Source: Clostridiales bacterium (GTDB lineage: Bacteria; Bacillota; Clostridia; Oscillospirales; Oscillospiraceae). Taken from it: a stretch of DNA of 60,880 bases. A program made the position numbers and the translations under genes. Under the pieces are notes generated by a model, which made no database searches, was not told the origin of the DNA, and saw only the letters and a list, made by a program, of their open reading frames with translations. The stretch is taken from the NCBI GenBank assembly GCA_014799565.1, contig JAAVHT010000011.1:56424-117303 (forward strand), written 5' to 3'. Positions 32,372 to 57,112 of this stretch are shown piece after piece. How positions within the stretch are numbered: the first letter of the stretch is position 1; each line of letters starts with the position of its first letter.

Positions 32372-32810
32372 TCAACTCTCCATATGGCGGCCCAGAAAAC
32401 CGGCCACCGTCTGAGCCAGCTTCAGCTCTACGTCGCCCAGGGCGGGAGCATCCCCGCCGTCACTGACAAAGGCCACACAGCCCAACACATCCCCCTCGGA
32501 CAGGATGGGTACAGCGATGAGCACCCGGTACTTGTCACTGCCGTCACACAGTGACAGGGCCTGCTCGGCCTGGACGCTGCGGCGCTCCTCCATCAGCTGC
32601 TCCACCTGTGGGGATACCCGCTTGTCCACCACCTCCCGACGGGGTACGCCCCCGGCGGCAATGACGCTATCCCGATCGGTGATGACGGCGGGCAGCCCCG
32701 CCACCCGGCTGATGGTGTCGCAGAGCTGGGCGGCGAAGTCAGAGACATCGCCCAATTGAGAGTATTTTTTGAAAATAACGCCGCCCTCGCGGTCGGTGTA
32801 AATCTCCAAG
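32372..32810 (-). pseudogene. spoVT: spoVT 3' part (codons for the GAF-like domain), separated from its 5' part
   Basis: This stretch encodes the last 145 residues of SpoVT: LEIYTDREGGVIFKKYSQLGD, a GAF domain with GLPAVITDRDSVIAAGG and VLIAVPILSEGDVLGCVAFVS, and the ending AQTVAGFLGRHMES. These correspond to Bacillus SpoVT from about residue 34 to the end. The AbrB-type DNA-binding N-terminus is missing here; it lies at 57015-57112. In the present arrangement the piece is read as the C-terminal part of the serine recombinase. Joining 57112-57015 to 32810-32372 gives 537 bases, that is 178 codons plus stop, all in frame. Its separation is best explained by insertion of the 32811-57022 element. 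Confidence 0.93.
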
Positions 32811-34534
32811 GGGTCGCCGTTGCTGATAACACGGACACCGAAAACCTTATTGCTATGCTTGTCGCTCTCCTGGACGATTTCGATTTCATAGGGGCGGGCG
32901 CCGACGGGGGCCATGGCGGCCACCGCCTCGGGCTTCTCCTCTGGAAGCGTACCGCTTTGCAGGATGCTGTCCACGTCCGCCTGGAGCTGGATATCTAAGT
33001 GATCCTCATACACCACGATTTTCTGGATGATGAGCTCCAGGTCGGCCCGCTCCAGCTTTTCCTTGTTCAGGATGTCGTCAAATACCTCCATGGCGGTTTT
33101 TGCCGCCCGGTTCACCCGGATGATGGTGTTGCGCTTGTCCGCCATCATTGCAATCTGGTTTTGCAGGCCCTCCATCCGGCGCAGAAGATCGCTCTCCAGC
33201 TCGTCGTAGGTCTCCTCCAGCGTCTCCTCCTGGTCGGGGTGCTTCATAATGTCCCGGATGCGCTGGCGCTTGGTGGCTTTCAGTTCCTCCTGGAGGTCGG
33301 CCAGCACCGTTTCCAGGTTGGCGGCACTCTGCTCTGTCTCGGCCACGTCCTGCTCCTCGCGGGCCAGGTCAGCGTTGAGCCGTTCCAGCATGGCGGCGGA
33401 GTTATCCTTCACCTTTTGGACGTAGAGCTTCAGCAGCTCGTCCAGCTTGTCCACCCGGATGTGGTGGCTGGTGCAGCCCTTCAGCCCCCGGCGGTGGTAG
33501 GTGCCGCAGCGGTAGGCGTCCTTTAAATCGGAACGGCTCATGGCGAACATGGGGGCGCCGCAGTCGCCGCACTCCAGGAAGCCGGAATACACGTTGTCGT
33601 TTTTCTTCACGCCCCGGTAGTGGGCGGTGGAGCGGCTCTGCCGCAAGGCCCGGGCCGTGGCGAAGGTGCGGTAGTCGATGATCTCCTGGTGGTGGTGCTC
33701 GATGACGATGTGGTCGGATTCGGCCTGGCGGACTTCCTTGCCGTTGATCTTCTTGCGGGTGTACTTGCCCTGCCGCAGGGTGCCGATGTAGAAGTCGTTG
33801 TCCAGAATGCCCTGCACGGTGACAATGGCCCAAGTGGGTTTGACGGCGCGGCGGCACTCCTCCCCGGCGGCCTCCTTGCGCTCCCGCTCAGCCATGCGGG
33901 GTGTGGGGATGCCCTCGTCGGTGAGGTGGTTGGCGATCTTCTTGTAGCCCCAGCCGTCGAGGTACAGCCGGAAAATCTCTCGGACGATTTCCGCCTCGGT
34001 GGGGACGACCTCAAATTCCTGCTTCTTGTTCACGACGTACCCATAGGGGGCGGCGCAGATCCACTGGCCGTCCTGCTGGCGGCGCTTGATGACGGACTTC
34101 ACCTTTTTGCTGGTGTCGGTGACGGGCATCTCGTTGAGCATGAAGTAAATCTGGATTTTCACCCAGTCGTCGTCATTGGGGAAGTCCACGTTTTCCCCGA
34201 TGGAGATGATGCGGACGCCCGCGTCCCGCAGATCTTCCAGCTCCACCAGGCCCCGGCCGTTGCGGCGGGAGAAGCGGGAGAAATCCTTGATGATGAGGAT
34301 GTCTTTTTTGTGGGACACCAGCTCCCGGCGCATGGTCTGGTAGCCGGGGCGCTGGTCGAAGGTATAACCGGAGCGGTCGCGATCCTCGTAGAAGGTCAGG
34401 GCGGAGTCGGGGAACCTGTGCTTCACAAAGTCCGCGATGATGGCTTTCTGGTTCTCGATGGAGGTGTTGTCGCGGTTCAGCTCTTCGTCCACCGAGATGC
34501 GGCAGTAGCCGGCGATATCGAAGCGTTCGATCAT
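32372..34534 (-). CDS. Large serine recombinase, fused in frame to the SpoVT C-terminal part
   Basis: A 720-residue reading frame in two parts. Residues 1-575 are a large serine recombinase: resolvase domain with the nucleophile S14 in GYCRISVDE, FYEDRDRSGYTFDQRPGY and KDFSRFSRRNGRGL; a recombinase domain (about 160-300) with PYGYVVNKKQEFEVVPTEAEIVREIFRLYLDGWGYKKIANHL; a zinc ribbon with CGDCGAPMF and YRCGTYHRRGLKGC; and a coiled coil (about 385-480). Residues 576-720 are the SpoVT GAF portion across the att site. In the excised circle the frame would instead continue into SQITLDRWERFCFGMLDLAK and stop at 56930, giving 602 residues. The start overlaps the cat-like gene stop (ATGA). Catalytic residues look intact. 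Confidence 0.93.
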   Translation of the reverse strand: MIERFDIAGYCRISVDEELNRDNTSIENQKAIIADFVKHRFPDSALTFYEDRDRSGYTFDQRPGYQTMRRELVSHKKDILIIKDFSRFSRRNGRGLVELEDLRDAGVRIISIGENVDFPNDDDWVKIQIYFMLNEMPVTDTSKKVKSVIKRRQQDGQWICAAPYGYVVNKKQEFEVVPTEAEIVREIFRLYLDGWGYKKIANHLTDEGIPTPRMAERERKEAAGEECRRAVKPTWAIVTVQGILDNDFYIGTLRQGKYTRKKINGKEVRQAESDHIVIEHHHQEIIDYRTFATARALRQSRSTAHYRGVKKNDNVYSGFLECGDCGAPMFAMSRSDLKDAYRCGTYHRRGLKGCTSHHIRVDKLDELLKLYVQKVKDNSAAMLERLNADLAREEQDVAETEQSAANLETVLADLQEELKATKRQRIRDIMKHPDQEETLEETYDELESDLLRRMEGLQNQIAMMADKRNTIIRVNRAAKTAMEVFDDILNKEKLERADLELIIQKIVVYEDHLDIQLQADVDSILQSGTLPEEKPEAVAAMAPVGARPYEIEIVQESDKHSNKVFGVRVISNGDPLEIYTDREGGVIFKKYSQLGDVSDFAAQLCDTISRVAGLPAVITDRDSVIAAGGVPRREVVDKRVSPQVEQLMEERRSVQAEQALSLCDGSDKYRVLIAVPILSEGDVLGCVAFVSDGGDAPALGDVELKLAQTVAGFLGRHMES
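32811..32830. repeat. attR: att site at the recombinase end (core GGGTCGCC plus inner arm)
   Basis: The 8-base core GGGTCGCC (32811-32818) is followed on the element side by six bases and then GATAAC (32825-32830). GATAAC is the exact inverse complement of the arm at the other end, with the same spacing. On the outer side lies the spoVT codon LEIYTD region. Designation attR versus attL is arbitrary. Confidence 0.85.
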
Positions 34535-35172
34535 GGTCTCCCCTCCACAAAGCGGTTCAGTTCCTCCCGGAGCCTGTCGTAAAACGCACCGATGTGGATG
34601 CCGTCCACCAGGGCATGGTTTGCCAGCAGCGTCACCGGCATGGTGGTGCGCCCGTGCTCCGTCATGTACTTTCCCCAGGTAATGCGCGGGTTGCTGTCTG
34701 CCGGTGTGGGCACCGGCTGGCGCAGCCCGGTGTAGTGCAGCCAGGGCACGCAGGAGAGGAACAGCAGACCGATGCTGTCCTCGCCGTCATCCAGGTTGAC
34801 CTGGGCCTTGGCCGCCTCATGCCGCCACTTCGCCTCGGGCAGGAACTGGTCGAAGGGCTTCATGCAGTCCAGGCGGCAGTAGCTGTATGTCCCGTCGTCC
34901 CGCAGCACAGTATGGGAGGTGTCGCAGGCGTCGAACTCGATGATGCTGCCCTCCTGGATTCTCTGCCGGAGTTCGGACACGGCATTTGCCGCCCGTCCGG
35001 CGCAGTACAGGAAGCTCAGGAAAAAGGGCCAGCGCTCTTTCCTGCACACTTCCAGCATGAGGCCGACCTCCACATCCACCGTCACGCCCACATATGGATC
35101 GGGCATGGCGTTGAAGTAGGCAAAGTGAGCCTGGCGGGGATACGTGCTCATGTCGATTATGTAGTATTCCAT
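34531..35172 (-). CDS. Chloramphenicol acetyltransferase-like protein (CatA family)
   Basis: A 213-residue trimeric-CAT-type acetyltransferase. The catalytic histidine motif is ANHALVDGIHIGAFY (HxxxDG), and VDVEVGLMLEVCRKERWPFFLSFLYCAG and SCVPWLHYTG match the family fold. The family acetylates chloramphenicol, but many members found next to recombinases have unknown acceptors, so resistance is not shown. The ATG at 35172 follows AGGGGA. Its stop overlaps the recombinase start, so the two are translationally coupled, which is unusual and links cat expression to element excision. Confidence 0.88.
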   Translation of the reverse strand: MEYYIIDMSTYPRQAHFAYFNAMPDPYVGVTVDVEVGLMLEVCRKERWPFFLSFLYCAGRAANAVSELRQRIQEGSIIEFDACDTSHTVLRDDGTYSYCRLDCMKPFDQFLPEAKWRHEAAKAQVNLDDGEDSIGLLFLSCVPWLHYTGLRQPVPTPADSNPRITWGKYMTEHGRTTMPVTLLANHALVDGIHIGAFYDRLREELNRFVEGRP

Positions 35173-35217
35173 AGCTGCTTCCCCTTTCAATTTTGATTCC
35201 ACATTTTCTTCATATTT

Positions 35218-35255
35218 ACAGATAACATTGTATCACAGTTCAGCCGGGAAAGCAA
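35218..35255 (-). promoter_or_regulatory. Promoter of the cat-recombinase operon with an att-arm-like site
   Basis: On the minus strand, TTGCTT (35255-35250), 17 bases and TACAAT (35232-35227) make a fair sigma-A promoter. Immediately after the -10 comes GTTATCTGT (35226-35218), identical to nine bases at the arm of the att site at 57003-57011. GATAC-AATG-TTATC around the -10 is a partial palindrome. Recombinase self-regulation is an inference. Confidence 0.5.
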
Positions 35256-35301
35256 CGGTCAAAACGGGGCGGCAGGGAGAAATACCCTGCCGCCCCAAAG
35301 C

Positions 35302-35631
35302 TTACCGCGCCATATTTTTGCGCCGCTTTCGCTCCCGCTGTACTTCCAGCTCCGCAATCCGCCTTTTGTTGCGGAGCAGCAGAACAACCGTCTCCTCCGC
35401 CAGATCCCGGCTGCCGGACAGGAATACGGCTACGGTATATTTTTTTGCCTTGTATTGCTGATATAGGGGTTTCAAACTTTCCTTAATCGCTTGATCCTGT
35501 TGTTCTTCGTTGGTTAGCCATACTTCTACGATCTTCCTGTCATCTCTGACATTGATCTCCAACGCAATATCATAGCTCCTTTCTTTGGTATATTGGAAAT
35601 ATTTTCTGCCTATTTTGCGGTTCTTATGCAC
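35302..35631 (-). CDS. Hypothetical protein of integrated elements
   Basis: A 109-residue charged protein with a GTG start at 35631 and no strong ribosome site. It begins HKNRKIGRKYFQYTKERSYDIALEINVRDDRKIVEVWLTNEEQ and continues with a predicted beta strand/helix core (YTVAVFLSGSRDLAEETVVLLLRNKRRIAELE), ending in a strongly basic tail (RERKRRKNMAR). It seems similar to small proteins I associate with mobile elements of Firmicutes, but no function is known and this was not checked. It is A+T-richer than flanking chromosomal genes. Confidence 0.6.
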   Translation of the reverse strand: MHKNRKIGRKYFQYTKERSYDIALEINVRDDRKIVEVWLTNEEQQDQAIKESLKPLYQQYKAKKYTVAVFLSGSRDLAEETVVLLLRNKRRIAELEVQRERKRRKNMAR

Positions 35632-35786
35632 AAGAAAAGCATAATTTTTGCCGAATTACTTTTGACTCGCAAAGACGGCTGCTAACCGCTATTGCAATCT
35701 ATTCCACCACAATCGGCTTCCCTACCAATCGGTTCATACACCGAAAACCCCGGATACTGCCGTATCCGGGGTTTGCTATACTTCCC

Positions 35787-36377
35787 TTATGATGCCACTG
35801 AATCGATCAGCTCCAGCACATTTTTGATTGCCGCCCTGCGCTCCTGCTTTTTCTGGCGCTTTTGGGCTTTCTTGTACCGCTTTGACCCCTTCGGAGGCGG
35901 CGCTTTTTTCTTCGGAGCCGGATAAATGGGGTGCATCATTCGATAGTAGTCATGCTCTACGATGTATTCCAAATAGTGGCGCAAATCAGTATAGCACACA
36001 TTTTGGGCATGGTAACCTGGATATGGCCCCTCCGCATTCCCTTTTGGATTCAAATCATTCCGATGGTAAAGCGCAGTTCCAGCCTTGTTGTCTGCATAGA
36101 CAATCATCCACCGGCTCCGCGGCGTGGCAACACCAACACCGCGCCCATGCCGGTAGACAGACAAACCGTGCTGTTGCGAATAGTCCAGCATCTCTTGCCG
36201 CTCGACCTGGAACTTCCGCCCCAACGGGTCGCAGCATTTGCAAAAGCGGTATCCAGCTGTAACCGCCCCTCTCACATCTGTGGCAGTGTCAAGGCGATCT
36301 GTCCGAATCATTGCTTTGTAGCGGCAGGTCTTTGTATGAAGAATCTTTTTTCTTCCATCTTTTCTGAAATAATACAT
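35787..36377 (-). CDS. Hypothetical protein with putative zinc-binding cysteines
   Basis: A 196-residue protein that I do not recognise. The N-terminal 55 residues hold a possible metal site: ILHTKTCRYKAMIR, then GYRFCKCCDPLG (HxxxC and CxxC), similar in spacing to Ada-type metal-binding modules. A middle part (VYRHGRGVGVATPRSRWMIVYAD) looks like a beta domain. The C-terminus is lysine-rich with heptad-like basic repeats (PAPKKKAPPPKGSKRYKKAQKRQKKQERR), which suggests nucleic acid binding. Unknown cargo of the element. Confidence 0.6.
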   Translation of the reverse strand: MYYFRKDGRKKILHTKTCRYKAMIRTDRLDTATDVRGAVTAGYRFCKCCDPLGRKFQVERQEMLDYSQQHGLSVYRHGRGVGVATPRSRWMIVYADNKAGTALYHRNDLNPKGNAEGPYPGYHAQNVCYTDLRHYLEYIVEHDYYRMMHPIYPAPKKKAPPPKGSKRYKKAQKRQKKQERRAAIKNVLELIDSVAS

Positions 36378-36471
36378 GGGTACACCTTCCTTCTTTCTAA
36401 TGATAAAAGCATATCACAGGAAGTGTCCCATAAACCGGGCCTTATTAGTGTTTTTAAGAAAGCTGTCTCCG

Positions 36472-37754: not shown

Positions 37755-38564
37755 TCAACTCAGACTCAGCACCGCCTTGGGATTGGCATCCACAGCAAAG
37801 GCATAAAACATGGGCTTGGACACGATGGCAAAGTAACTGCCCCACTGGCCCGCGTAGTCCTTCTCAATGATCTCCAACGTCTCCCGAAGCTGGAGCAATA
37901 CCGCCACCTCATGCTTGCAGGTGTAGCCGCAGGGGCAGTCGCAGAACAGACTGCTGATCCGCCCGTCCCGGTACTGGAACTCCACCTCGTAAGGCCTTGT
38001 CCCCTCCACAATGGCCCGTCCCTGCACTCCGTTCAGGCACAGATACCGCACCCGGTTCTCCCTGTAGTAGTCCAGCCCCCGCTCAAATACCGCGCCGGAC
38101 ACGTCCAGCCCGCTGAGACTATCCAGCGGAAAGCCGTCTTCGTCATAGCTGATGTAATATTCCGTCTCATCCTCTTGGAGTGGCTTCACCCAAGAGCAAA
38201 ACTGCTTCCAAGGCAGCACCAGCAGGTCAAAGGTGATGAGATGGGCGTTGGCCTGGTAAAGCTGTCCGACCACGTGGGTGTCTGCCAGACCGATTACCCG
38301 TTTGTAATCCTCCACTTTCACCTTGAAATGGGTGCTCACCGCCGTCACCCGGCCCCGCAGGCCCTCCAGCTTGCCGTCCACAAACACGATGTCGCCCACA
38401 TGGAGGTCAAAGCGGTCATTGTAATACGACAGAGTGCGGTTCCGGTCAGGGAAGAATATCTGCACGATGGTTGGCTTTATTTCAGCTTTTATCTTGATTT
38501 CCGGCTTTTTCTCACCGTCTTTGTCTGCGCGTCTACTAAAGGGATTGAAACCGATGGGATTCAT
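37755..38564 (-). CDS. SWIM zinc-finger domain protein
   Basis: A 269-residue protein. Its key feature is a C-terminal SWIM-type zinc motif, LFCDCPCGYTCKHEVAVLLQL (CxC then CxH), a module that binds DNA or proteins. Before it come PTIVQIFFPDRNRTLSYYNDRFDLHVGDIVFVDGKLEGLRGRVTAV, a small beta-barrel-like domain, and a region with SLSGLDVSGAVFERGLDYYRENRVRYLCLNG leading into the finger. The start at 38564 is preceded by AAGGAGG; an upstream in-frame ATG at 38591 is unlikely. Function unknown; SWIM proteins often accompany Swi2/Snf2 helicases, none of which is here. Confidence 0.75.
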   Translation of the reverse strand: MNPIGFNPFSRRADKDGEKKPEIKIKAEIKPTIVQIFFPDRNRTLSYYNDRFDLHVGDIVFVDGKLEGLRGRVTAVSTHFKVKVEDYKRVIGLADTHVVGQLYQANAHLITFDLLVLPWKQFCSWVKPLQEDETEYYISYDEDGFPLDSLSGLDVSGAVFERGLDYYRENRVRYLCLNGVQGRAIVEGTRPYEVEFQYRDGRISSLFCDCPCGYTCKHEVAVLLQLRETLEIIEKDYAGQWGSYFAIVSKPMFYAFAVDANPKAVLSLS

Positions 38565-38641
38565 GGAATGGCCTCCTTTTCTGGTTATCATTTCTCCATG
38601 GTTTCATGATAGCATAGACAAAGTCCTATAAACCGGCATAT

Positions 38642-39034
38642 TTATAAGTCAAGTTCGGTATCACTGACCTTCATCAGATAGCGGTAGTGCGTCCAGCTCA
38701 ATTCGGGACGCAGTGCGTCCTGAATTGGGAACGCAAGATAGAATCGCCTCATGTTGCGCAGATTGCTTTCATCAAACCCTTTCCCGAACTCTGCTGTCAT
38801 TCTATCAGAAATATATTGAAGCACCTGTTTGCCGTAAGCCGCCCTGTCATTTTCCCCGCAGGCCTCAAAAATCGACTTGCCGATCTTCTAGCAGGCGGTC
38901 ACCATCGCGGCGTTGACCGCCGTATAGATCTGCCGCTGCGCCTCAATCACATAGCCCCGGATGGACCGGTAAGCGTCCTCCGGCTGCGAATTGCTCAACG
39001 AATTAGAATTATTTTGTTTCATCAGTTCATCCAT
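38642..39034 (-). pseudogene. Decayed DUF1016 (YhcG-type PDDEXK nuclease) gene
   Basis: From the ATG at 39034 (ribosome site AAAGGACG) the frame encodes the DUF1016 N-terminal domain: YVIEAQRQIYTAVNAAMVTA, then KIGKSIFEACGENDRAAYGKQ and FGKGFDESNLRNMRRFYLAFPIQDALRPELSWTHYR. Between MVTA and KIG the family has Tyr-Trp; here the codons are TGC TAG (TAG at 38888-38890), so a tryptophan codon has become a stop. The frame also ends after 130 codons, while intact proteins are about 350 residues with a C-terminal nuclease domain, which is missing. Clearly a remnant. Confidence 0.8.
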
Positions 39035-39095: not shown

Positions 39096-40145
39096 TCAAC
39101 AACACGCTTTGGTATAAAAGGTCGCCCGGCCCTTCCCGTGTTTCACGAGGATGCCCTCATCCACCAGCTGTTTGATGGAACACTCCACCGAGGTCTTGCA
39201 CAGCGTAGGACAGAGTTCCATGATGTCAGTTTTCGTAAACTTGCCAATCCTGCTCTCCACGGCCCTGCGTACAACCTCAATGGCCGAAAGCTTGTCCCCT
39301 ATCAGCTCCAACCGCTCATCCAACTCCCGGTAAGCGGCCAGGATAACCGAAAGCAGATATTTAATGAACGGCGTTGGGTCATCCGCGTTCTCATGCCAAC
39401 CGGCTTGACTGGCCTCTAAGGCGTCATAGTACAGGTCTTTGTTTTTCGCGATCTTGCTCTCCAGCGAAATATACTTTCCCACGTGATACCCGGAGCGATA
39501 GAGCAGCAGCGTCGTCAGCAGGCGGCTCATTCTGCCGTTTCCGTCATTGAACGGGTGGGCACACAGGAAGTCATGGATCACAACTGGAATCAGGATCAGC
39601 GGATCAACCTCCTGGGTGTCGATCACCCGGTTGCAGCTGTCACAGATCATGTCAATGGCCTCCGGCGTCTCATAGGGCGGCAGAGGAGTAAACAGCACAA
39701 AGGTATTCCCCGCTGTATCAGTCGCACTGATATAGTTTTGCGTATTTTTGAAACAGCCGCCGATGCCCTTTTCAGAGTAGCGGTACAGGTCTCGATGGAA
39801 CTGTAAAATATAGCTGGGGCGCAGAGGGATGTACTCGTAGCTCTCATGGATGGTATTCAGCACATCCCGATAGCCCATGATCTCACGCTCATCCCGCGTC
39901 CGCGGGGCAGTCTTGTCCGCACAGAGCTGCTTCAGGCGGGTATTCGTTGTGCGGATACCCTCAATCTCGTTGGAAGCCTCCGTACTCTGTACCTTAGCGA
40001 TCTCCACCAGCCGCTCAAGCTCTATGGGCATCTGCTTTAGAAGCACCTGCTGTTTTCCCTTGTACTCATGGATTTGGGCGACATAACCTAGTATCTCACT
40101 GTCCCAGGTTCGGTTCTTCAGCTTTCTATAGTCAAATTTCCGCAT
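39096..40145 (-). CDS. fic: Fic family protein with winged-helix C-terminus
   Basis: A 349-residue Fic protein. The AMP-transfer motif is complete: HPFNDGNGRMSR at 197-208, with catalytic H197. An N-terminal inhibitory helix motif is seen in STEASNEIEG (S58-x3-E62-G63), so this is a class II self-inhibited Fic. The N-terminus is a Fic/DUF4172-like cap, and the last 70 residues (AIEVVRRAVESRIGKFTKTDIMELCPTLCKTSVECSIKQLVDEGILVKHG) form a winged helix. Such proteins AMPylate target proteins and may bind their own promoter. Two palindromes sit directly upstream of its start. Confidence 0.92.
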   Translation of the reverse strand: MRKFDYRKLKNRTWDSEILGYVAQIHEYKGKQQVLLKQMPIELERLVEIAKVQSTEASNEIEGIRTTNTRLKQLCADKTAPRTRDEREIMGYRDVLNTIHESYEYIPLRPSYILQFHRDLYRYSEKGIGGCFKNTQNYISATDTAGNTFVLFTPLPPYETPEAIDMICDSCNRVIDTQEVDPLILIPVVIHDFLCAHPFNDGNGRMSRLLTTLLLYRSGYHVGKYISLESKIAKNKDLYYDALEASQAGWHENADDPTPFIKYLLSVILAAYRELDERLELIGDKLSAIEVVRRAVESRIGKFTKTDIMELCPTLCKTSVECSIKQLVDEGILVKHGKGRATFYTKACC

Positions 40146-40166
40146 CCCGTCACCTTCTGCTCAATC

Positions 40167-49400: not shown

Positions 49401-52400
49401 CTGCGGAGCGCTTCACCGTTACCTTGAGGGGCCCGCCCACGTCCTCCACCGTGAGCAGTCCGGTGCTGCTGATCGTGCTGTTGCCTGTGACCTCCCAAGT
49501 GATCGTCCCGGTGCCGGTGCCGCCTGTGATACCCAGCTGAATGACGTCGCCGTAGCGGACCTGAGCCTGGGTGCCGGTGATGGAGATGGTCTCCTGGTTC
49601 GCCGGTACGATCTTAAAGGTCCGGGTGTTGTTAGCCGCAATGACGTAGTTGGAATTCTCCGATGGGGTGATCTTGACAGTGTAGGTGTCCACATCCACCA
49701 TACCATTGTTGCCATTGGTTCCGGTGATCTCCACGGTGTACTCATGCTCCGGGATCAGGAGGCTGTTGTCATCGTAGACGGTGATCGTCGGTTTCTGCTG
49801 GCCGCCGTTGAACGTGAACTGATCCGAGGACAGCGTGATCGTGGGGTTGTTCACGGTGTTTTTGTCGATGGTCACCGTACCCAGTGTTTGGGGAGTGGTA
49901 TCACTATGGTTCGAGTCGCCCAGCACCTTGTACTTGATTTCGTAGTCGCCAACTGCTGTGGCAGTGGGGATGGCCGCAGACCAGTTCCCGCCGTTCACCG
50001 AGTACATCACTGTGCCGTCGTCGGACACACCGGCCTTGACCAGCTCCTGGGACGCGCCGCTGTACTGTAGGCCGGTTTTCTCCTCCGGGGCCGTAAACGC
50101 CGGAGCCTTCTTTGTGATCTCAAAGGTAGCCGTGCCGTTGACGATGTAGTTGCCGCCGTTGTTGTCGCTGACGATGACCGTCGCAGTACCCGCGTTGGTG
50201 TTATCGCGGTAAGATACGGTGTACTCCGACGCCGCGACCGTGACGCTGCCGTCCTCAACGGTGACGGTGGTGGGGATTTTTGCCGTACCGTCATACTCAC
50301 AGGAAGCCGGGGCCACTGTGATCTTCGGCGTGATCGTCTTGGGCTTGATGGTCACGGACACCTGGCCGGGCGCGGTATCGTCGTGATTGGTATCGCCCTT
50401 AACCATATAATAGACGGTGTAAGTGCCCGCATTGGTTTCCTGGGGGATGGTCTCCGAATAGGAGCCAGCCGCGCCGGTGGAGGAATAGACCACCGTACCG
50501 CCGGTGGCGGTGCCCACGGTCACCAGATCCTGCGCGGTGCCGTCATAGGTCAGATCCTTGGCCTTGGGAGTTTCGGTCAGCACCGCGGCGCCGTTCCTGA
50601 TCTCGAAGCTCACCGTCACGTCGTCAAACTTGTAGTTGCCGTCGGCATTGGCCGTGACGGTCACGGTAGCGGCGGTGCCGGCATTCTTGTTGCTGGCGTA
50701 GCTCACGGAGTAGTCGCTGGTTGTGAGCGCGGCGCTGTAATCGCCGTCTACACCTGTGACTGTAACGGCAGGTCTTTTCTCGGTACCGTCGTAGGTGTAG
50801 TAGTATTTGCCATCGTTGTCCGTTTTCAGGTCGTGGTCGGACAGCTTGACGGTCACGGTGACATCTCTGGGCGTGATATTCGCCTGGGCCGTGTCGGGGA
50901 TGGTGACCGCATACTTGGTGGTATCGGCGGTGATGGAGAAACCGGGATCGGAGCGATCCAGCGTGACAGTCTTCTTGTTGCCGGCGTTGACATCGTCAAA
51001 CGTACCCTTCAAACCGGTGATGGTGATGGTGTCATTGTCGGGGTCTACCAGATCGTTCACGACAGCGTTTGTTACCGCAGCCGCATTGTTTCCGTCATAG
51101 ACCTTATTCGCGACAGTCACCACCGCCGTGACCGGCTTGGGCTCCACGGTGAATGTCCAGGTGTCGCTCACCGTCCCGTAGTTGGGGACGGTCCGCTCCG
51201 CTGTGACGGTGATGGAGCCGGTGTCCTTGACAGTGAGTTCACCCGTGGCCGGGTCAATGGCGGAATTGGCTCCGCCCGCGGTCATGCTCCACGTCACCGT
51301 CCCGTTTCCGGAGCCGCCGGTGGTATCCAGCGTGGTGACTTTGTCGCCGTAATAGACGTGGTCGGGCTTGCCGGTGATGTTCAGGGCGGCCTGCTCCGCC
51401 GCGACGATCTCCACCGTAGCGGTCTCGGAGAACGTGTAGTTCCCGTTGGCCACATTTTTGATGGTTGCCTCATATGTCCCGGCATCTGTTAATATGCCGG
51501 TAACCGTTGTGCCGTCAGTATTTGCCCATGTGACCGTATACTGCTCCTCGTCAATGACGGTTTTGCCGTCTTTAACCGTAATCTTCGGATCCTTCTTCGT
51601 ACCGTCGTACAGATAGGAGGACTCCGACAGCTCGATCACAGGGGTGATGGATTTGGGGGCGATGGTTACGGTCACAGGTACCGCGTTCACCACCACGCCG
51701 GTATGATCGGCGGTTTCGTCTACCTTATAGTAGACGGTGTAATCGCCCGCATCGGTTCCAGTGGGGATCTCCGGGAAGAAATTGATCCCATCCAGAGAAT
51801 ACACGATAAAGCCCACATTGGTCTCGCCCGCTGTGACCAGCGCCTGGGGTTGACCGTTGTAGGTCAGCGGCGCGATGCCTTCGGGGTCAGTGGTGATCTC
51901 TGCGGCCGCCAGTGTGATATCGGCGGTCACCGTGTCGGGGTAGCTGATAGCGTATTTGGCCGTGTCCCCGGTCACCTTGACTTTGGAGGTATCCAGCGTG
52001 ACGGTTTTCCCCGTTCCAACTGCGGGGGTATCAAAGGCGGCGGTGATGCTGGCCGGGTCGATGGTGACCACATCGCCATTTATTGTGGTGATCTCTGCGG
52101 AGGTCACAGTGGCGTTTGTATTGCCGTCATAGAGCTTATCCGCAACCTCAACAGAGGCCGTCACGGGCCTCGGCGCGGCGGTGAAGATCCACTGGGTCTC
52201 GGCGGCAAGGTAGTTGGTATCCGCGGCTTTCTCCACCGTAATTGTCACTTCGCCCACGCCGGTAATGGTTACCTTGCCGTCTGTGTCTACAGAGGCGGGG
52301 CCGGTCGCATTCCAGGTCACATCACCGTTTCCGCTGCCGCCGCTGACGGTCAGCGGGAAGCTGTCCCCGTAGTTGGTGGCGGCGGGCTTCCCGCCAATAA

Positions 52401-55400
52401 CCAGCGTTTCCTGCGGGATCTGGCCGATGGTGAAGGTCGCCGTATTGGCGGTAACACCGGTCAGATCGTAGTTGCCGCCTGTGGCGTCGCTGACCGTAAT
52501 GGTATAAGTCTCTACGTCTGTCGGAGCGTCAACGTTACACGACCAGGTGTACTCCTCCTCCGGCAGTACGGTCTTTCCGTCTTTGACCGTGACTGCGGGC
52601 ATTTTGGGCGTGCCGTCGTACGCAAAGCCCTCAGGCGACAGCTCGATGGTGATGGCGGTCAGCGGCTTGCGCTGGATGGTCACAGGCACGGACTTCACTG
52701 CCAAATCGTTGTGGTTCTTATCGCCGGTGACCTTATAGTAGACGGTGTAATCCCTCGCCTCGGTGCCGGTGGGGATGGCTGCGGTAAAGGTGCCCGTCGG
52801 ACTGTTCAGGGCGTACAGCACTTCGCCGCCGGAGGTCGTGCCCGGAAGCAGCAGCTCATGGGACTTGCCGTCGTAGGTGATAGCAGACGCGCTCGGGGCC
52901 GGATCAAACACGATATCCGCCTTGACGATCACGAACACCGCCGAACCCGTCACAGTGTAATTGCCGCCCGGCTTATCAGTGATGCTGACAGTCCCCTTCC
53001 CGGCGTCAATGTTGTCGCTGCAGACCACATTGTATTCATCCGCGTCAATCACCGTGCTGCCGTCTTTGACGATGACTGTGGGTTTTTTCGCGGCGCCGTC
53101 ATAGGTATAGCTGACCAGGGGATCCCCGTCGTCATCCAACAGCTCGATGGTGGGGCCATTCACCGGCTTGGGGGCGATGGTGACGGTCACCGAGCCCACA
53201 TCGGAATCACTGTGGTTGCCGTCGCCCTCTACCTTATAATATACTGTGTAATCGGCGGCGTCAGTTTCGGTGGGGATCTGATCTGTAAAGTTTGTATTGT
53301 CCGTGGAGTAGACCATCTTGCCGCCGGATCCTGTGCCCGCGGTCACCAGTTTCTGGGCGCGGTTATTAAAGGTCAACGGGTCGCCCGCCGCCTCCGGCGC
53401 GGTGAGGACTTTGGCCTGCTCTTTTTTGATCGTAAAAGTTTCTGTAACGTCGGTAAACTTGTAGTTGCCGTCGGCCTTGGCCGTGACGGTCACGGTGGCG
53501 GTGGTGCCCACGTTGACGTTATTGCTGTACGACACCGTGTACTGGTCAGCCGGGATCGTCCCATCGGCCTCTGTCAGCGTGACAACCGGTTCCTTTGCGT
53601 TCCCGTCGTAGATGTAGGAGCACGTGCCGTCGTCCTCTTCCTTCAAGCCGTCGCCGCTCAGCGTGATCGTGGGCGTCACCGGCTTGGGCGCAATCGTCAC
53701 GTCCACACTGGCCGGAGCCAGGCCGGTGTAATTGCTGGTCTCCTGAACGCGATACCAGACGGTGTAGGTGCCCGCATTGATCCCTTCCGGGATCGCTGTA
53801 GCATAGGGGCCGTCTTTACTCAGGGCGTATTCCACCTGCACACCCTCGGTGTCAACAACCAGCACAGAATCGTCGATCAGTTCCTGGGCCGTTCCGTCGT
53901 AGGTCAGATTGGCGGCGTCCGGCGCGGTCGTGATATGCACGACCGCTTTGTTGATCGCCGCCTTGACGGAGAGGCTGGAATAGGTAACGGCGTAGTGCTC
54001 AGAATTTTTGCCGTTGATCGACGCGCCGCTTGTATCCACAGTCACCGTCTTATTTGCGCCCGCGTTTTCGTCGCTGAACGTGCCGGTCAGGCCGGTGATC
54101 GTGATCTCATCTCCGGGCAGAACGCCCTGCTCCACCACGGCGTGGATGACAGCGGTAGTATCGCCGTTGTAGGATTTATCCTCCGCCGTCACCGTCGCAG
54201 TGACCGGCCTTAACCCTGCGTTGAACGTCCAGGACGCGGTGGCGTCGTCGTAATTGACCACGCCGGTGGCGGGGTCTTTGCCGGATTTTGTGGCCTGAAC
54301 GGTAACGGAACCGTGGCCGGTCACGGTGACCTGCCCGCTGTGTTCATCCACCTCGGCAACATCCGAACCGGCCGTGATCTCCCAGGTGACATTGCCGTTG
54401 CCGGAACCGCCCAGGGTGCCCAGGGTGAACTGATCCCCGTAAATGACGGTATTGGGCTGGTTGGTGATGGACAGCGCGTCCTGCGTTTTGGAGGTGATTT
54501 TGAATGTAGCGGTAGCTGTTGTGAGCTTGTAGTTGCCGTTTTGCTTGTTTGTAACTGTAACAGTAGCTGTGCCCACGTTTCGATTGTCAGTATAGGTCAC
54601 TTCATACTCACTGTTTGGAATTACCGCTTCCCCGTCTTTGACGGTGACCACCGGCTCCTTATCCCCGCCGGTGTACAAAGTCGTCTTATACTCCAGTTCT
54701 ACCGTAGGCGTGATCTCTTTGTGATTGATTCGCGCGCTTGTATATTTTGTATCCGGGTTTTTGATCAATGTCTCCGAAACACCGCTGTAGTTCTCCGTGT
54801 CCGCTACCCGATAGTAGACGTTATAACTACTCACGCCAATACCGGTGGGAATATTCGTGGAGTAAGTGCCGTCTGTACCTAACTTAAACTCGATCTTCGC
54901 CCCCTCAGCGGCCGCGCCGGGCTTCAGAACGCCCGCTGTCACCAGCTCCTGGGCTTCGCGGTTGTAGGTCAGCGTTTTCGCTATGGGTGCGGTTGTGACC
55001 GCTGGTATTTTGTTGATGGTCAGGGTCAGTAGATCCGTTTCGGCCGCTTTATAGTTTTGGCTTTCCGGGATGTATGCCTTGATCTCATACTCGCCCGCGT
55101 TTGTGGGAAGGCCGGCGGTAAATTCTGTATCTCCAACCTTCCGGTAGGAGTACTGGAGATACGGATGCAGATCCTCGGAGGCTTGTATGGTAATGGTAAT
55201 ATGGGGCAGGCTGGCGCTGTCAACCGGGAGCCCCCTGCTGTCATAGTCCACAGCACAGGTGGACTCATCCCACCTGATCCCAGGCTGATCCTGCTCGACA
55301 TGGTACGTCTTGGTAAAGGTTCCGTTGAACGTAATGCCGGTGACGGTCACCGTAATTTCACCGGCGTCTTTCCGGGGCTCATAAGCTACCTGATAATCGG

Positions 55401-56535
55401 TATCCTTCACCAGCTCCCTGCCGGAGCCGTCGGTCAGGGCCACTGTGATGGAAACCTCTTCCGGTTTCACGGTGCCGTCATAGACCAGACCGGTCAGGTC
55501 GCGCTCGTCCACGCCGATGGCGACCGTATTTCCACAGGAGTTACAGATCCCGTTTCCGTTCTGATCAAAGGTGAAGGTACACGCCTCCGTCTTCTCCGTG
55601 CCGCAGTATGGACAAGTCCAGGTGTGCGTCGTGGTGCCGGGGGTGTGCGTGTAGGTTTTTCCCAAATGGCCGGGGCACTGGCCAACGACGATTATCTTGG
55701 CCCTCGCCGCGTCTGCCGGGAGCAGCAGCGCGCCATTGCCGTCAAAGTAGGCATAGCCCGGTTCCAAAAGAGCGGCAAGATTGCCGTCCGCTGCCCGGAT
55801 CGCGGCGGCTGTTCCCAAATATCTGCCAGCGGACAGACGTACTTGCGCACCGGAGGCGATATCCAGGGCATAGGACTTCCCGGTAATGGACGTGTTCGGC
55901 TCCGTGATGCTCAGAAAGCCGCCGGACAAGACTTCCACACCAGCATTATTTGGGGCGATGACCGTACCTTTGAGGTACAGCTTGCCTGTTCCGGTAACCT
56001 GTACAGCGACCGAACCCATTCCGGTGAAGGTATACTCGGCTGTATCGAAGTACAGCAAGGACGGTACCTCAAATGGGTCAAACTCACTATAATTCCCTGT
56101 TAATGTATAGAAATTCTCGGACGAGGCACTGTTGTCGGGGTCGCCGCTCGGTTCCGCAGAATCCATCTCGTCCAGCTGCTTCTGCACGGACTCACAGGGC
56201 GACAGATCCACTTGCTGCTGTTCATCAGCGGTCAGCTCATCATACAAGGCGTAAATTTCACTGAGCTGATCCTGGACCTGCTCGCGGTTGCCTTCCGAAA
56301 CGCTGTCGGGCAGCTTGTCGATCAAGTCCTCAATGGGGCAGATCTGACAGACAAACGTACATGGCGCACCCGAATTTTCCGGATCTTCTTGGGCATACCC
56401 GCACTCATCCGTGTGCGCCGGATGATGCTGGCACAGGCCGCTGTCCGTTCCCTCATCAGCAGCGAATGCCCACACGGGGCACAGGTTCAAGCACAGCGCC
56501 AACGCGATCATAAAACTCAGCACTCTGTGTTTCAT
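40450..56535 (-). CDS. Giant SLH-anchored repeat surface protein (5361 residues)
   Basis: A single uninterrupted 5361-codon gene. A signal peptide (MKHRVLSFMIALALCLNL to VWAFA) is followed by a Cys/His-rich segment (about 28-70), a helical stretch and a beta-helix-like part (about 140-270), and a zinc-ribbon-like CPYC...CNSC region (about 300-330). From about 340 to 5000 come tandem modules: MBG-like (EPVVTVKDGEAVIPNSEYEVTY), a TYDG/YTVYYKV type, Ig-like (VYYGDTFTLSAVGGSGN) and YDG (VYDGNTDATVT). I count nine Ig-like and nine YDG copies. Three SLH domains close it (about 5190-5361; FADVPPESWAADAVDFASSH onward). It is exported, wall-bound and probably adhesive; the ligand is unknown. It makes up 66% of the element. 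Ribosome site GGGAGG. Confidence 0.93.
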   Translation of the reverse strand: MKHRVLSFMIALALCLNLCPVWAFAADEGTDSGLCQHHPAHTDECGYAQEDPENSGAPCTFVCQICPIEDLIDKLPDSVSEGNREQVQDQLSEIYALYDELTADEQQQVDLSPCESVQKQLDEMDSAEPSGDPDNSASSENFYTLTGNYSEFDPFEVPSLLYFDTAEYTFTGMGSVAVQVTGTGKLYLKGTVIAPNNAGVEVLSGGFLSITEPNTSITGKSYALDIASGAQVRLSAGRYLGTAAAIRAADGNLAALLEPGYAYFDGNGALLLPADAARAKIIVVGQCPGHLGKTYTHTPGTTTHTWTCPYCGTEKTEACTFTFDQNGNGICNSCGNTVAIGVDERDLTGLVYDGTVKPEEVSITVALTDGSGRELVKDTDYQVAYEPRKDAGEITVTVTGITFNGTFTKTYHVEQDQPGIRWDESTCAVDYDSRGLPVDSASLPHITITIQASEDLHPYLQYSYRKVGDTEFTAGLPTNAGEYEIKAYIPESQNYKAAETDLLTLTINKIPAVTTAPIAKTLTYNREAQELVTAGVLKPGAAAEGAKIEFKLGTDGTYSTNIPTGIGVSSYNVYYRVADTENYSGVSETLIKNPDTKYTSARINHKEITPTVELEYKTTLYTGGDKEPVVTVKDGEAVIPNSEYEVTYTDNRNVGTATVTVTNKQNGNYKLTTATATFKITSKTQDALSITNQPNTVIYGDQFTLGTLGGSGNGNVTWEITAGSDVAEVDEHSGQVTVTGHGSVTVQATKSGKDPATGVVNYDDATASWTFNAGLRPVTATVTAEDKSYNGDTTAVIHAVVEQGVLPGDEITITGLTGTFSDENAGANKTVTVDTSGASINGKNSEHYAVTYSSLSVKAAINKAVVHITTAPDAANLTYDGTAQELIDDSVLVVDTEGVQVEYALSKDGPYATAIPEGINAGTYTVWYRVQETSNYTGLAPASVDVTIAPKPVTPTITLSGDGLKEEDDGTCSYIYDGNAKEPVVTLTEADGTIPADQYTVSYSNNVNVGTTATVTVTAKADGNYKFTDVTETFTIKKEQAKVLTAPEAAGDPLTFNNRAQKLVTAGTGSGGKMVYSTDNTNFTDQIPTETDAADYTVYYKVEGDGNHSDSDVGSVTVTIAPKPVNGPTIELLDDDGDPLVSYTYDGAAKKPTVIVKDGSTVIDADEYNVVCSDNIDAGKGTVSITDKPGGNYTVTGSAVFVIVKADIVFDPAPSASAITYDGKSHELLLPGTTSGGEVLYALNSPTGTFTAAIPTGTEARDYTVYYKVTGDKNHNDLAVKSVPVTIQRKPLTAITIELSPEGFAYDGTPKMPAVTVKDGKTVLPEEEYTWSCNVDAPTDVETYTITVSDATGGNYDLTGVTANTATFTIGQIPQETLVIGGKPAATNYGDSFPLTVSGGSGNGDVTWNATGPASVDTDGKVTITGVGEVTITVEKAADTNYLAAETQWIFTAAPRPVTASVEVADKLYDGNTNATVTSAEITTINGDVVTIDPASITAAFDTPAVGTGKTVTLDTSKVKVTGDTAKYAISYPDTVTADITLAAAEITTDPEGIAPLTYNGQPQALVTAGETNVGFIVYSLDGINFFPEIPTGTDAGDYTVYYKVDETADHTGVVVNAVPVTVTIAPKSITPVIELSESSYLYDGTKKDPKITVKDGKTVIDEEQYTVTWANTDGTTVTGILTDAGTYEATIKNVANGNYTFSETATVEIVAAEQAALNITGKPDHVYYGDKVTTLDTTGGSGNGTVTWSMTAGGANSAIDPATGELTVKDTGSITVTAERTVPNYGTVSDTWTFTVEPKPVTAVVTVANKVYDGNNAAAVTNAVVNDLVDPDNDTITITGLKGTFDDVNAGNKKTVTLDRSDPGFSITADTTKYAVTIPDTAQANITPRDVTVTVKLSDHDLKTDNDGKYYYTYDGTEKRPAVTVTGVDGDYSAALTTSDYSVSYASNKNAGTAATVTVTANADGNYKFDDVTVSFEIRNGAAVLTETPKAKDLTYDGTAQDLVTVGTATGGTVVYSSTGAAGSYSETIPQETNAGTYTVYYMVKGDTNHDDTAPGQVSVTIKPKTITPKITVAPASCEYDGTAKIPTTVTVEDGSVTVAASEYTVSYRDNTNAGTATVIVSDNNGGNYIVNGTATFEITKKAPAFTAPEEKTGLQYSGASQELVKAGVSDDGTVMYSVNGGNWSAAIPTATAVGDYEIKYKVLGDSNHSDTTPQTLGTVTIDKNTVNNPTITLSSDQFTFNGGQQKPTITVYDDNSLLIPEHEYTVEITGTNGNNGMVDVDTYTVKITPSENSNYVIAANNTRTFKIVPANQETISITGTQAQVRYGDVIQLGITGGTGTGTITWEVTGNSTISSTGLLTVEDVGGPLKVTVKRSAGGNYSDVSATWEFSAAKKQVTAVVTADDRAYDADDKTATVHASVPNSDLVSGDSITINGVTGTFDDSNVGTNKKVTVDSSNPTVTGTNWENYEITYPATTTASILAEAATVDTDPTPNSLTYDASQAQTLVTAGTATGGIMVYSLDGANFTASIPTGKDAGTYTVYFKAQGDGNHTDSAVKSTQVTIAKQSVTPQVELFPSSAQYDGKEHKPTVTLWDDDNNVIPTSEYKVTYVTDNNENWTDKGDYTVKIEDIDRGNYVVKTATKTFTISTTAQNPLEITNKPGLVYYGDTFTLSAVGGSGNAAVTWSVDDAGKAVVDIDANGFVKIIGTGSATIKATKPGGDNYDTATATYPLNALKKPLTAIVTADDKVYDGETPAKATIHVTWKDGGLVGDDTINTAALEGTFDDPYVGQNKTVTITGGPIDSDKYVITIPGSTTASILKADTAAPDLTANDREYDRTAQPLVTGGNTNTTVYSDARDGVYSANVPTGTNAGTYTVWYKELGDANHNDSAPQAKTVTISPKKLTTVNITLTGNDLQTDDTDGHYFYVYDGTDKKPTVTIKDGEAVVPASEYMVTYSGNKNAGTATVTITSNAGGNYTFDEQTVTFEITSAGAQLTKSPEARNLTYIGPNQLQELVTVGAATGGHIEYSLDGITYSESIPKGETAGTYTVAYKVVGDGNYTSGTETWTVSVTIKQKEVVSPKVTVTGTYTYDGNPQEPAAAAVTVEDGTTVIPASEYTVSFRDNVEAGKATAVITNANGGNYIVNGTGTFIIGKADASVETPPTGKENLPYNGAAQALAEAGKASGGTMVYSLSKDGEYSPVIPTQTAVDTYTVWYKVQGDGNHDGTDPASVDASIIVNTVTNPTIQVTPEAATYNGKKQEPTVTIKDDNGLEINGSEYTVTYTDTDGNVTTDPTDVGTYTLTITATGANYDFTGNTKTATFEILPADQTPLTITNTRERVYYGDKILLGTTGSSGTVTWKVDDGAPASIGNDGLLTITGVGSVKVTATSTAPGYTDQTATWSFFAEKKPVTAVVTAEAKTYDGDTDATVTAVLQSSDLVNGDTVKITLSGSFEDPNAGTDKKVKVDSTSPDFDGSTGNYENYSITYPATTTASILKADVTDVTPPAVKTDLKYTGIAQALVTAGSSTQGTLEYSTDGLAYSASLPTDTDADSYDVWYRVKGDGNHNDRLGTKLEESVTIAPQEVASPTIELKPTGVSYDGAVHKPEVTVKDSNGRVIPDSEYTFAYGDGNWKDVGTYKVTITDVDGGNYKITGAEAEFEILATGQSPLSITDKPGTVHYGDSFTLSAVGGSGTGTIKWDVTAGTDVAEINQNGFVKIVKSGSVTITATKLADGNYGESTATWTFSAEKRPAEAVVTAKDKEFDTTDDAELVITWKTGDLLKGDTVTLNLTGTFNNANVGDNKTVTITGEIPDSTKYEISYNTTTTASITPKAAKVTAPTQIDGGLVYTGSAQPLVNAGSATNGIILYSLDGIIYGPNVPTGKNADTYTVWYKVTGDENYKDVAPAVIPVTIDPKTVSSPTIELSSETFDYDGNPKKPDVVAVKDSSVVIPAGEYTVGYSNNVNAGTNAKVTISDVPGGNYNVSGSTTFTIRAGVASLKDEPKANNLTYNGFAQELLTPGTAVNGRVVYSTSKTGSYTTSIPEETNAGTYQVWYKVEGENGAEVSEADATPRSKTVTIQPKQVTPTVVVSGSYPYTGSAVTPSVIVIVDGKLLTNGVDYLVISNSINPGTATATVISLGSNYQFTAVATFEITKTKAGFLMEPEAKTGLVYTGEAQDLVDWGMGQDGAAVVYSLNGGAFYPFVPTATEVGSYVVSAKVQGNDFYADSDVKSYRVTIGRNTIAEADLDVTLSADSVTFTGYELKPTVTVRDVENNVTISASEYEVTYANNIAVGTADVTVKSTTKNYSFSKTVHFTIREGDAPALTITGKQDTVCYGDTLRLSTTGGSGSGAVTWEASGPVDKLGDGQFKITSSGSVSITATKAGGGTDTWSFYADPKPVTAVVTAADKPYDSNTTATFTVTVRGLISGDTISSGDVTASGYFKDANAGTDKTVIISGLTVSEAIRAKYDISCPDTTTASITPAPAEVKEAPEKIDGLKYTGQPQTLVTAGTAANGNMAYSLDGINYGYTVPTGTDAKTYTVWYKAAATDENHKDSAPAQVNNAAIGVNTDKPTVLCTQDTFQFDGTVKTPTVVVLDSANRIIPESEYTVTIPSAIAVNTYTVTVTDNPGGNYEFSGSLTGTFEIVSASQNPLSIVTDKPSDIYYGDTFRLSAMGGSGSGAINWSIEQETSIATIDSNGVVTVKGTGGFTVKAYRAASDGYSASNTASVPFYANPKPITAVATAVSRGYNTEKTANVTVTVPELNITIPVTGTFDDENAGTNKTVTIVYGEGTKVTNPNYQITWPDSTTASIYKVDAQIENAPQPDPGSDSKGLTYTGSAQALVTGGTTVGNIGTIVYSTSQNGTYSASIPTGTKAGTYTVWYKVADSVNYTGIPAAEVKVEIAKADPEITSKPTATGREGQKLSEIRLEGGATNTSGGTFAWVDGSIPAVNGTEYDVIFTPKDEANYNTRTFQVKVTLTAQPPESSGSTSSTPASSPDTSSTSSTQTQTTTTVQNGTASTVVSAADGSRLVQEATANQSKNVVVKPEITGDVTKAEVSIPSSTVSQLGSKTDAALTVSSPVADVTIPNGALDTLSQAGGTVSVVTERVEQSVVLTLAAGGETVEQVPGGLTLTVPVEDAGPGTVAVLVHDDGTRETVRKSIVEDGMMSIPLSGSATVEIVDNSKDFADVPPESWAADAVDFASSHELFSGTSATTFSPNLAMSRGMLATVLYRLEGSPELDLTDLFDDVSIDAWYAEGVAWALENGIANGYGGGQFGPNDSVTREQFVVMLWRYAGSPEASSQILDFADADQVSSYAQEALCWAVENGILRGKGNGVLDPRGTATRAQAAQLLKNFMENT

Positions 56536-56580
56536 GCCATAACCTCCCAGGGAGATAACTTCCCCATTTTAGTGTCTCTG

Positions 56581-56609
56581 ATTTTACCACCAGAACCGAA
56601 AATTGTCCA
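56581..56609 (-). promoter_or_regulatory. Promoter of the giant surface protein gene
   Basis: On the minus strand, TGGACA (56609-56604), exactly 17 bases, then TAAAAT (56586-56581): a good sigma-A promoter 46 bases before the ATG. Confidence 0.7.
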
Positions 56610-56831
56610 CTGGTAAAACAGCAATTTCCGTATTTGGCTTTGGAATACAACAAAAAGCATTTGTACTCTCCGTTGCTGTCTGACTGTTCCAAATGAAGGA
56701 AAAATACTTATTTATGATACAGCTTTTGCGCTGAAAGCCAGTCTTTGCCAAAGGTTTTTCAAATTGCTGTTACCAAAAACTACTATATTGACGGCTGCTT
56801 TTCTGCCCTTCCTGAAAACATTGGAACAGTC

Positions 56832-56874
56832 AAAACGCCGCAAGCGCTTGTCCCCCAAGCGTTTGCGGCGTTTT
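56832..56874. terminator. Long hairpin terminator inside the element end
   Basis: AAAACGCCGCAAGCGCTT (56832-56849) pairs with AAGCGTTTGCGGCGTTTT over 18 positions with one G-T pair, with T runs on both sides. It lies 56 bases beyond the stop at 56930, which would be the recombinase stop codon in the circular form. The rest of 56536-57014 shows no gene. Confidence 0.85.
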
Positions 56875-57002
56875 GCTTCTCAAATTGGCCCTTCCCGAAT
56901 TCACACGGTTTCTCCAAATCTTTCCGTCACTATGTACAACTCCACCCCGTCCGTTTTGCCAGATCCAGCATCCCGAAGCAGAACCGCTCCCACCGATCCA
57001 AC

Positions 57003-57022
57003 GTTATCTGTGACGGGTCGCC
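57003..57022. repeat. attL: att site at the giant-gene end (inner arm plus core GGGTCGCC)
   Basis: GTTATC (57003-57008), six bases, then the core GGGTCGCC (57015-57022); the outside continues as spoVT codons for MRIRE. Together with the other end, the circle junction would be a 32-base site with 6-base inverted arms at equal spacing around the core, typical of large serine recombinase attP sites. Confidence 0.85.
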
Positions 57023-57112
57023 CTCGCGAATACGCATAGTGCGGCGGATCTCCTTGGGGATCACCACCCGGCCCAGATCGTCGATGCGGCGCACGATCCC
57101 AGTCGCTTTCAT
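57015..57112 (-). pseudogene. spoVT: spoVT 5' part (AbrB-type DNA-binding domain), separated from its 3' part
   Basis: From the ATG at 57112 the frame reads MKATGIVRRIDDLGRVVIPK then EIRRTMRIREGDP, nearly identical to the first 33 residues of Bacillus SpoVT, the AbrB-like swapped-hairpin DNA-binding part. At 57014 the match to SpoVT stops: the frame enters element DNA and ends with TAG at 56930, so the product here would be a 60-residue truncated protein. The ribosome site CAGGAGG is intact. SpoVT is a late forespore regulator of sigma-G genes and of germination traits. The rest of the gene is at 32372-32810. Confidence 0.95.

Follow-up and report, generated by a model that had tools for sequence, protein, structure and literature searches.

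A site-specific mobile island that splits spoVT and fuses its recombinase to SpoVT

What becomes of a spore-forming lineage when a gene of the forespore is cut in two by a mobile island? The question is raised by the spoVT locus of a Clostridiales bacterium (Oscillospiraceae; assembly GCA_014799565.1, contig JAAVHT010000011.1), analysed here in a window of 60,880 nucleotides, meaning the whole stretch of DNA. The original prediction held that spoVT is split by an element of about 24.2 kb and that rejoining at the core would give a SpoVT of 178 residues. The coordinates were confirmed, with 24,204 bp between the crossover points and spoVT cut at codon 33/34, and joining the two halves by script gave a single frame of 178 residues. 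The same codon split was found in 16 of 42 genomes of the genus and an uninterrupted site in a sister species (G060), so the split is not due to chance. Beyond the original prediction we found that the recombinase is fused to SpoVT, that the family of elements is order-wide and that it is transferred horizontally. We consider it probable that a family of site-specific mobile islands with varied cargo cuts spoVT, and that excision restores the gene in the spore-making cells of those lineages that sporulate.

The split gene and the recombinase fused to it

The features on which the argument rests are as follows.

57014..57112, minus strand: 5′ part of spoVT, codons 1-33 (first half of the AbrB DNA-binding domain)
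32372..32809, minus strand: 3′ part of spoVT, codons 34-178 and stop (second half of AbrB, and GAF; PF15714, E 3.1e-35)
57015..57022, minus strand: attL core GGCGACCC, crossover dinucleotide GA at 57018-57019
32811..32818, minus strand: attR core GGCGACCC, crossover dinucleotide GA at 32814-32815
32810..34534, minus strand: large serine recombinase part of the fused open reading frame (ORF), residues 1-575 (resolvase, recombinase and zinc-ribbon domains)
56933..57013, minus strand: apparent detached C-terminal tail of the recombinase, 27 codons followed by a stop, in frame behind the 5′ part of spoVT
57171..57199, minus strand: forespore-type (sigma-F/G-like) spoVT promoter GAATA-N17-GATAATA, intact in the split locus

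Codons 34-178 run from 32809 to 32375 on the minus strand, with the stop codon at 32374-32372. An identical core had been described at both ends. In the window this holds, the 8-bp core on the plus strand being GGGTCGCC at both 57015-57022 and 32811-32818, but across the family it does not: the invariant part is the crossover dinucleotide GA (31 of 31 elements), and the 8-bp core is the same at both ends in just 18 of the 31. No second SpoVT_C domain was found in the source genome, an assembly of 2.51 Mb in 92 contigs that is 78.5% complete.

A serine recombinase had also been placed against one end of the element. It does touch the 32.8-kb end, but it is fused in frame into the 3′ half of spoVT and does not lie beside it, reading through as a single ORF of 720 amino acids (32372-34534, minus strand). 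PF00239, PF07508 and PF13408 all scored over their cut-offs in this one protein, which marks it as a large serine recombinase, and the nearest solved recombinase by sequence is SprA/YokA of SPbeta. At the opposite end of the element, the 27 codons that follow the 5′ part of spoVT would, judging from the two junctions, be the recombinase's own C-terminus in the rejoined circle. The tail codons and the read-through fusion together therefore place the attachment site attP inside the recombinase gene. Each integration swaps C-termini between the recombinase and SpoVT.

The rebuilt attP is a palindrome about GA, matching at a mean of 13.4 of 18 positions in 31 elements (shuffled sequences, 4.7; attB, 7.7). 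Such an imperfect palindrome around a central dinucleotide is again a mark of large serine recombinases. Moreover, the two attP halves of an element, which lie tens of kilobases apart, pair better with each other than permuted pairs do (1 of 5000 permutations was as good). The AlphaFold2 model of the fused protein had a mean predicted local distance difference test score (pLDDT) of 66.5 and a predicted template modelling score of 0.33, and the domain arrangement was poorly modelled. Within it the GAF part reached a pLDDT of 72-90 (means of ten residues), with residues 573-592, within the second half of the AbrB domain, falling below 50. On this model, the GAF domain probably folds in the fusion while the DNA-binding domain does not.

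Distribution, movement and selective constraint

The 42 genomes of the genus comprised 16 with split spoVT, 21 with spoVT in one piece, one with an altered 5′ part (G027) and four in which spoVT was not found. The one-piece genes bear out the expectation that related genomes would carry an uninterrupted spoVT, the exact empty site being that of G060; an intact gene in half of the genus genomes and the failure to find a second SpoVT_C in the source genome are also the opposite of what the original prediction had named as fatal to it. The fused 3′ part was present in 13 of the split genomes, the 5′ part with its tail in 14, and both in 11. One split genome (G033, 7% contaminated) additionally holds a divergent one-piece copy of spoVT. 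Across the host's order the fusion, called by match span, was found in 33 of 394 genomes, and these 33 fall into ten families by the group codes used. This is a lower bound, at most two candidates per genome having been scored, and it includes one fusion recognised by reading (G354) and two that are partial, at contig starts (G418, G141). The 5′ half was detectable in 23 of the 30 fused genomes outside the genus. A separate set of 81 recombinase loci was made up of the best 80 of 403 relatives from named genomes and one viral contig; 75 were fused to SpoVT at GDP|LEI, three were cut by contig ends (one of which, L209, shows the start of the fusion) and three were unfused. Strains kept in collections are among the carriers, for example Butyricicoccus pullicaecorum DSM 23266 (L196) and Flintibacter muris DSM 110149 (L172).

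That the structure is an assembly artefact or a chimera is barely conceivable. The window does come from a fragmented and incomplete assembly, but 15 genomes, among them the one-contig genome G368, have the two halves on a single contig and correctly ordered, the elements measuring about 15 to 38 kb, and the fusion is present in the named strain Butyricicoccus pullicaecorum DSM 23266.

Two comparisons bear on movement. Between intact G060 and split G028, both flanks were 94% identical with an 11-bp overlap and a 21.9-kb insert, and the 3′ parts of SpoVT had no amino-acid differences. Between G001 and G021, 14.8 kb of the element was 95.8% identical and the recombinase 91.4%, although the 3′ parts of spoVT were only 74.6% identical and merely 108 bases of upstream flank could be aligned. 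An element so nearly identical beside so divergent a spoVT shows horizontal transfer between species. A SpoVT tree was built from 13 sequences of split and 20 of intact genes, without G012 and G063 but with the divergent G033 copy. On it the split or intact label changes 8 times, at least 5 of these being forced by well-supported branches. Such alternation is the pattern expected from repeated loss and regain, and does not prove it. Precise, reversible integration is well supported: the island is mobile, its insertion can be reversed, and its main target is spoVT.

Other target sites were seen in a few genomes. In G226 (L136, L137) and G163 (L138, L139) spoVT is intact, the recombinase being joined to a different gene. 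In G434 (L230, L275) it is joined elsewhere, the core of spoVT is unsplit, and the first ~10 codons of spoVT are replaced by unrelated sequence.

Selection appears to act on every piece of the split locus, as judged from substitution patterns. The median ratio of nonsynonymous to synonymous substitution rates (dN/dS) of the SpoVT 3′ part was 0.19 in split and 0.23 in intact lineages. The 33-residue 5′ part was unchanged in 14 of 15 copies from the genus, with codons varying (median proportion of synonymous differences, pS, 0.39), and in the recombinase the nonsynonymous proportion, pN, was far under pS in the pairs compared. For the tail, compared among 12 genomes (G014, G023 and G027 omitted), the in-frame pN/pS of codons 8-25 was 0.37, while the two other frames gave 1.02 and 1.44; for codons 1-7, which lie within the att arm, the in-frame value was 1.19. 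The tail is detached from the recombinase in all integrated copies read. Constraint on a detached tail suggests, therefore, a role for the stub-tail peptide or else for the recombinase in its native form, as encoded by the circle.

Proposed excision of an element from a forespore gene

According to the text available for the papers concerned, spoVT of C. difficile is under sigma-F and sigma-G and a mutant lacks heat-resistant spores (PMC3789822), and in B. cereus the loss of SpoVT severely impairs sporulation (PMC5061766). Excision of SPbeta is, in the accessible part of its description, restricted to the mother cell, so that the spore genome retains the element (PMC4191935). The named sporulation intervening elements, as far as the available accounts go, interrupt mother-cell genes, where excision costs the lineage nothing. 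The logic of skin and SPbeta, on which the original prediction leaned, fails to carry over to spoVT, since SpoVT is, in the species studied, a forespore, that is a germline, protein. Mother-cell-only excision would be closed to this element, because restoring SpoVT in the forespore means that the element leaves the inherited chromosome; excision there would strip it from the spore chromosome unless it were reintegrated.

Promoters were scanned with a sigma-F/G-like consensus. All 15 split genomes scanned have such a forespore-type promoter ahead of spoVT, as do 12 of the 17 intact ones. SpoIVA was present in 41 of the 42 genomes of the genus; nearly all hosts therefore keep at least this part of the sporulation pathway. 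On the strand opposite to the recombinase, six complete elements held two sigma-F/G-like sites, both in G064. The earlier suggestion of a sporulation-regulated or reversible element is thus upheld in part: it is reversible and site-specific, given the empty site and the attP palindrome, but regulation by sporulation is not shown: the scan, which covered sigma-F/G-like sites, gave no excess of them at the recombinase. Developmental timing of excision is plausible but unproven.

In the explanation that we favour, the large serine recombinase would cross over at GA within the glycine-aspartate-proline codons 31-33 of spoVT. Integration would cut spoVT, the recombinase gaining the GAF domain of SpoVT and the N-terminal stub of SpoVT gaining the 27-amino-acid tail of the recombinase. 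Excision would undo both exchanges, restoring the whole of SpoVT and the recombinase's native end. Spore formation in the relatives tested requires SpoVT. A lineage that has kept sporulation would therefore have to excise the element in its spore-making cells, and we infer both that excision takes place in the sporulating cell and that something there triggers it. The element would then persist by reintegration or by entry into new hosts.

Several observations weigh against this account. Two stops in the fused ORF of G398 and the altered 5′ half in G027 make some copies look decayed, and no 5′ half could be detected in 7 of the 30 genomes that carry the fusion outside the genus, nor in 2 of the 13 within it. 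Many of the hosts are metagenome assemblies, and the only genome of the genus without SpoIVA (G025) is split. No sigma-F/G-like site lies on the recombinase strand of the six complete elements, and upstream of the 81 recombinases there were 3 such sites in 195 kb, compared with a shuffle mean of 4.95. The pairing of an element's own attP halves became non-significant once the set was thinned to 6 divergent elements (992 of 5000). The SpoVT tree leaves 14 of its 30 inner branches open, and 44 of 500 draws with shuffled labels did as well, so that the split or intact state is weakly clustered at best. Lastly, no circle junction was seen in what was searched: 0 of 81 recombinase loci ended in their own tail, and a search with one exact attP pattern gave 0 matches in viral contigs.

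Some of these points would suit a purely selfish insertion, whose carriers lose SpoVT, sporulate poorly or not at all and excise the element rarely and without regulation, their lineages either surviving by vegetative spread or dying out. Decayed copies (G398, G027) and a recombinase without a sporulation-type promoter are what it predicts, as are horizontal mobility and the alternation of split and intact states on the tree; were each insertion very young, part of the constraint would predate it. Yet the 3′ part of SpoVT is equally constrained in split and intact lineages, the 5′ part is all but invariant, the spoVT promoter is kept in every split genome scanned and SpoIVA is nearly universal, and for these reasons we think this explanation unlikely. 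A narrower form of the favoured reading, whose odds overlap with it, has excision timed to the forespore by a regulated directionality factor, with reintegration from a circle borne in the spore. It has precedents for excision at sporulation in skin, SPbeta and gin, as given in the available text of PMC5595907, it has a candidate factor in the conserved small ORF beside the recombinase, and it agrees with the constraint on the halves and the tail. The lack of a sigma-F/G-like site on the recombinase strand speaks against it, as does SPbeta itself, which in the part of PMC4191935 available excises in the mother cell only and so stays in the spore genome. We regard it as quite possible, and hold it tentatively.

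A further explanation, which we rate as improbable, makes the C-terminal exchange itself the switch, the fused recombinase excising and the native one reinserting in a germline cycle at each spore generation. The integrated state would make recombinase-SpoVT(GAF) together with a 60-residue stub-tail chimera, expressed from the forespore promoter that is still intact. Of the two forms of the recombinase, the fused one would excise, the stub or a GAF ligand serving as its forespore signal. Both chimeras would be destroyed by excision, which would restore SpoVT in the forespore and leave a circle encoding the native, integrating recombinase, which would ride in the spore and reinsert at outgrowth. 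The junctions would then set the direction, with no dedicated directionality factor.

Whichever reading holds, a serine recombinase naturally fused to its own target protein, and released from it by its own reaction, is a new way in which the direction of recombination could be set. What is new in this locus is the C-terminal exchange and the germline problem posed by an element in a forespore gene. With such a target, the spore genome undergoes editing at every generation, or else sporulation, which governs transmission of such commensals between hosts, has a reversible off-switch in many gut bacteria that form spores.

Contig ends were inspected for traces of excised copies. In the 42 genus genomes, the search for a high-identity recombinase beyond the fusion yielded a contig-end fragment in G024 and nothing else. 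In 18 of 80 loci a contig ended no more than 3 kb rightward of the match end, and four contig ends (L168, L208, L209, L230) lay, by count, within about 130 bp of the core, where density predicts ~1.6. In an isolate, Flavonifractor An10 (G431; L209, L268), at the 3′ junction one contig breaks off ~15 bp beyond the att core and a second begins there, which could mean a mixture of excised and integrated DNA. G432 (L208, L267) and G433 (L168, L269) each hold two recombinase 3′ ends that differ, which may reflect tandem elements at spoVT. As a lead to mixed populations the contig breaks at the att core are weak, since tandem copies explain them equally well (G432, G433).

Related systems, cargo and minor observations

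Like the sporulation gene-intervening elements skin, SPbeta, gin, vfbin and yin, the element splits a sporulation gene, restores the frame on rejoining at a short core and encodes a serine recombinase. Those elements, as far as the available accounts go, interrupt genes specific to the mother cell, whereas spoVT is a forespore gene in the species studied (PMC3789822, PMC5061766, in the text available). SPbeta in spsM (SprA/SprB) and skin in sigK share the restoration of a gene by precise excision, but they are a prophage or prophage-like and the spoVT element has no phage gene among the ORFs scanned. Another parallel, as far as the available text of PMC5595907 describes it, is gin in gerE of Bacillus cereus ATCC10987 (GirC/GirX): a non-phage element that splits the gene of a sporulation regulator, with a short core repeat, a serine recombinase and no conjugation genes of its own. 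It differs in that gerE is a mother-cell gene and that gin carries three genes for recombinases along with a directionality factor that is proven, and the same text describes no fusion of recombinase and target. The repressor switch of mycobacteriophage BPs likewise has attP within a reading frame and alters the C-terminus of a regulator upon integration, going by the accessible part of PMC4557955; there a phage repressor is truncated, whereas in the spoVT element a host GAF domain is added to the recombinase and the recombinase's tail to the SpoVT stub. No description of an element in spoVT was found among the papers listed from the open-licence literature, judged by titles and the openings of abstracts, and no paper there brought spoVT together with a serine recombinase.

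Staphylococcal cassette chromosome (SCC) elements, with CcrA/B/C, are serine recombinase islands with modular cargo. The Ccr models score here as distant relatives (best 119 bits, cut-off 900), too low for membership, and the target gene differs.

The cargo genes and the small ORF in the window are as follows.

40450..56535, minus strand: secreted repeat protein of 5361 amino acids whose C-terminus is S-layer-like (SLH as judged by eye; its length exceeded the limit of the family scan)
39096..40145, minus strand: Fic/DOC-domain protein (PF02661, E 2.6e-14)
37755..38591, minus strand: SWIM zinc-finger protein (PF04434, E 2.7e-4)
35787..36377, minus strand: protein of 196 amino acids, no family match
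35302..35631, minus strand: small ORF of 109 amino acids, no named family, candidate directionality factor
34531..35202, minus strand: CatA-like O-acetyltransferase, scoring far under what the named families require (best 101.8 bits, curated cut-off 300)

The repeat protein alone makes up two thirds of the element. At 38642-38887 (minus strand) lies a remnant of DUF1016_N (PF17761, E 9.1e-23), a decayed cargo gene whose start is severed by an in-frame TAG just upstream. The small ORF, for which no match was found in Pfam, NCBIfam or PHROGs, was present in front of the recombinase in 72 of 91 sources, a set that includes some genomes twice. Of the other 19, several begin less than 300 bases upstream of the recombinase. 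The six complete elements have three features in common, namely the small ORF, the recombinase and the tail; their remaining genes mostly differ save in close pairs. The G064 element, in which the small ORF also lies upstream of the recombinase, has a second, distant recombinase-like gene close to its left end.

No phage structural genes were found among the element ORFs scanned, a set that did not cover all ORFs and for which the 5361-residue one was too long. No relaxase matched in the window, and the 81 recombinase loci, which reach at most a few kilobases upstream, gave one partial match to the relaxase of L083. A phage or conjugative nature of the element is thus unsupported in what was scanned.

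Two rearranged loci were seen. In G229 (L146, L147) the spoVT 5′ half and the fused 3′ half lie in opposite orientations ~22 kb apart, as after an inversion, and contig C15 of G100 carries two spoVT 5′ halves (28-156 and 10571-10672). Two fecal scaffolds carry relatives of the recombinase. L084 (MT836658.1), deposited as phage, encodes a recombinase-SpoVT fusion 46% identical to that of the window. L083 (MT839487.1), a 4.2-kb fecal phage scaffold, combines a recombinase of 70% identity with a relative of the small ORF and a full Mob_Pre relaxase, which was found on this scaffold only; it may show a mobilizable ancestor of the family.

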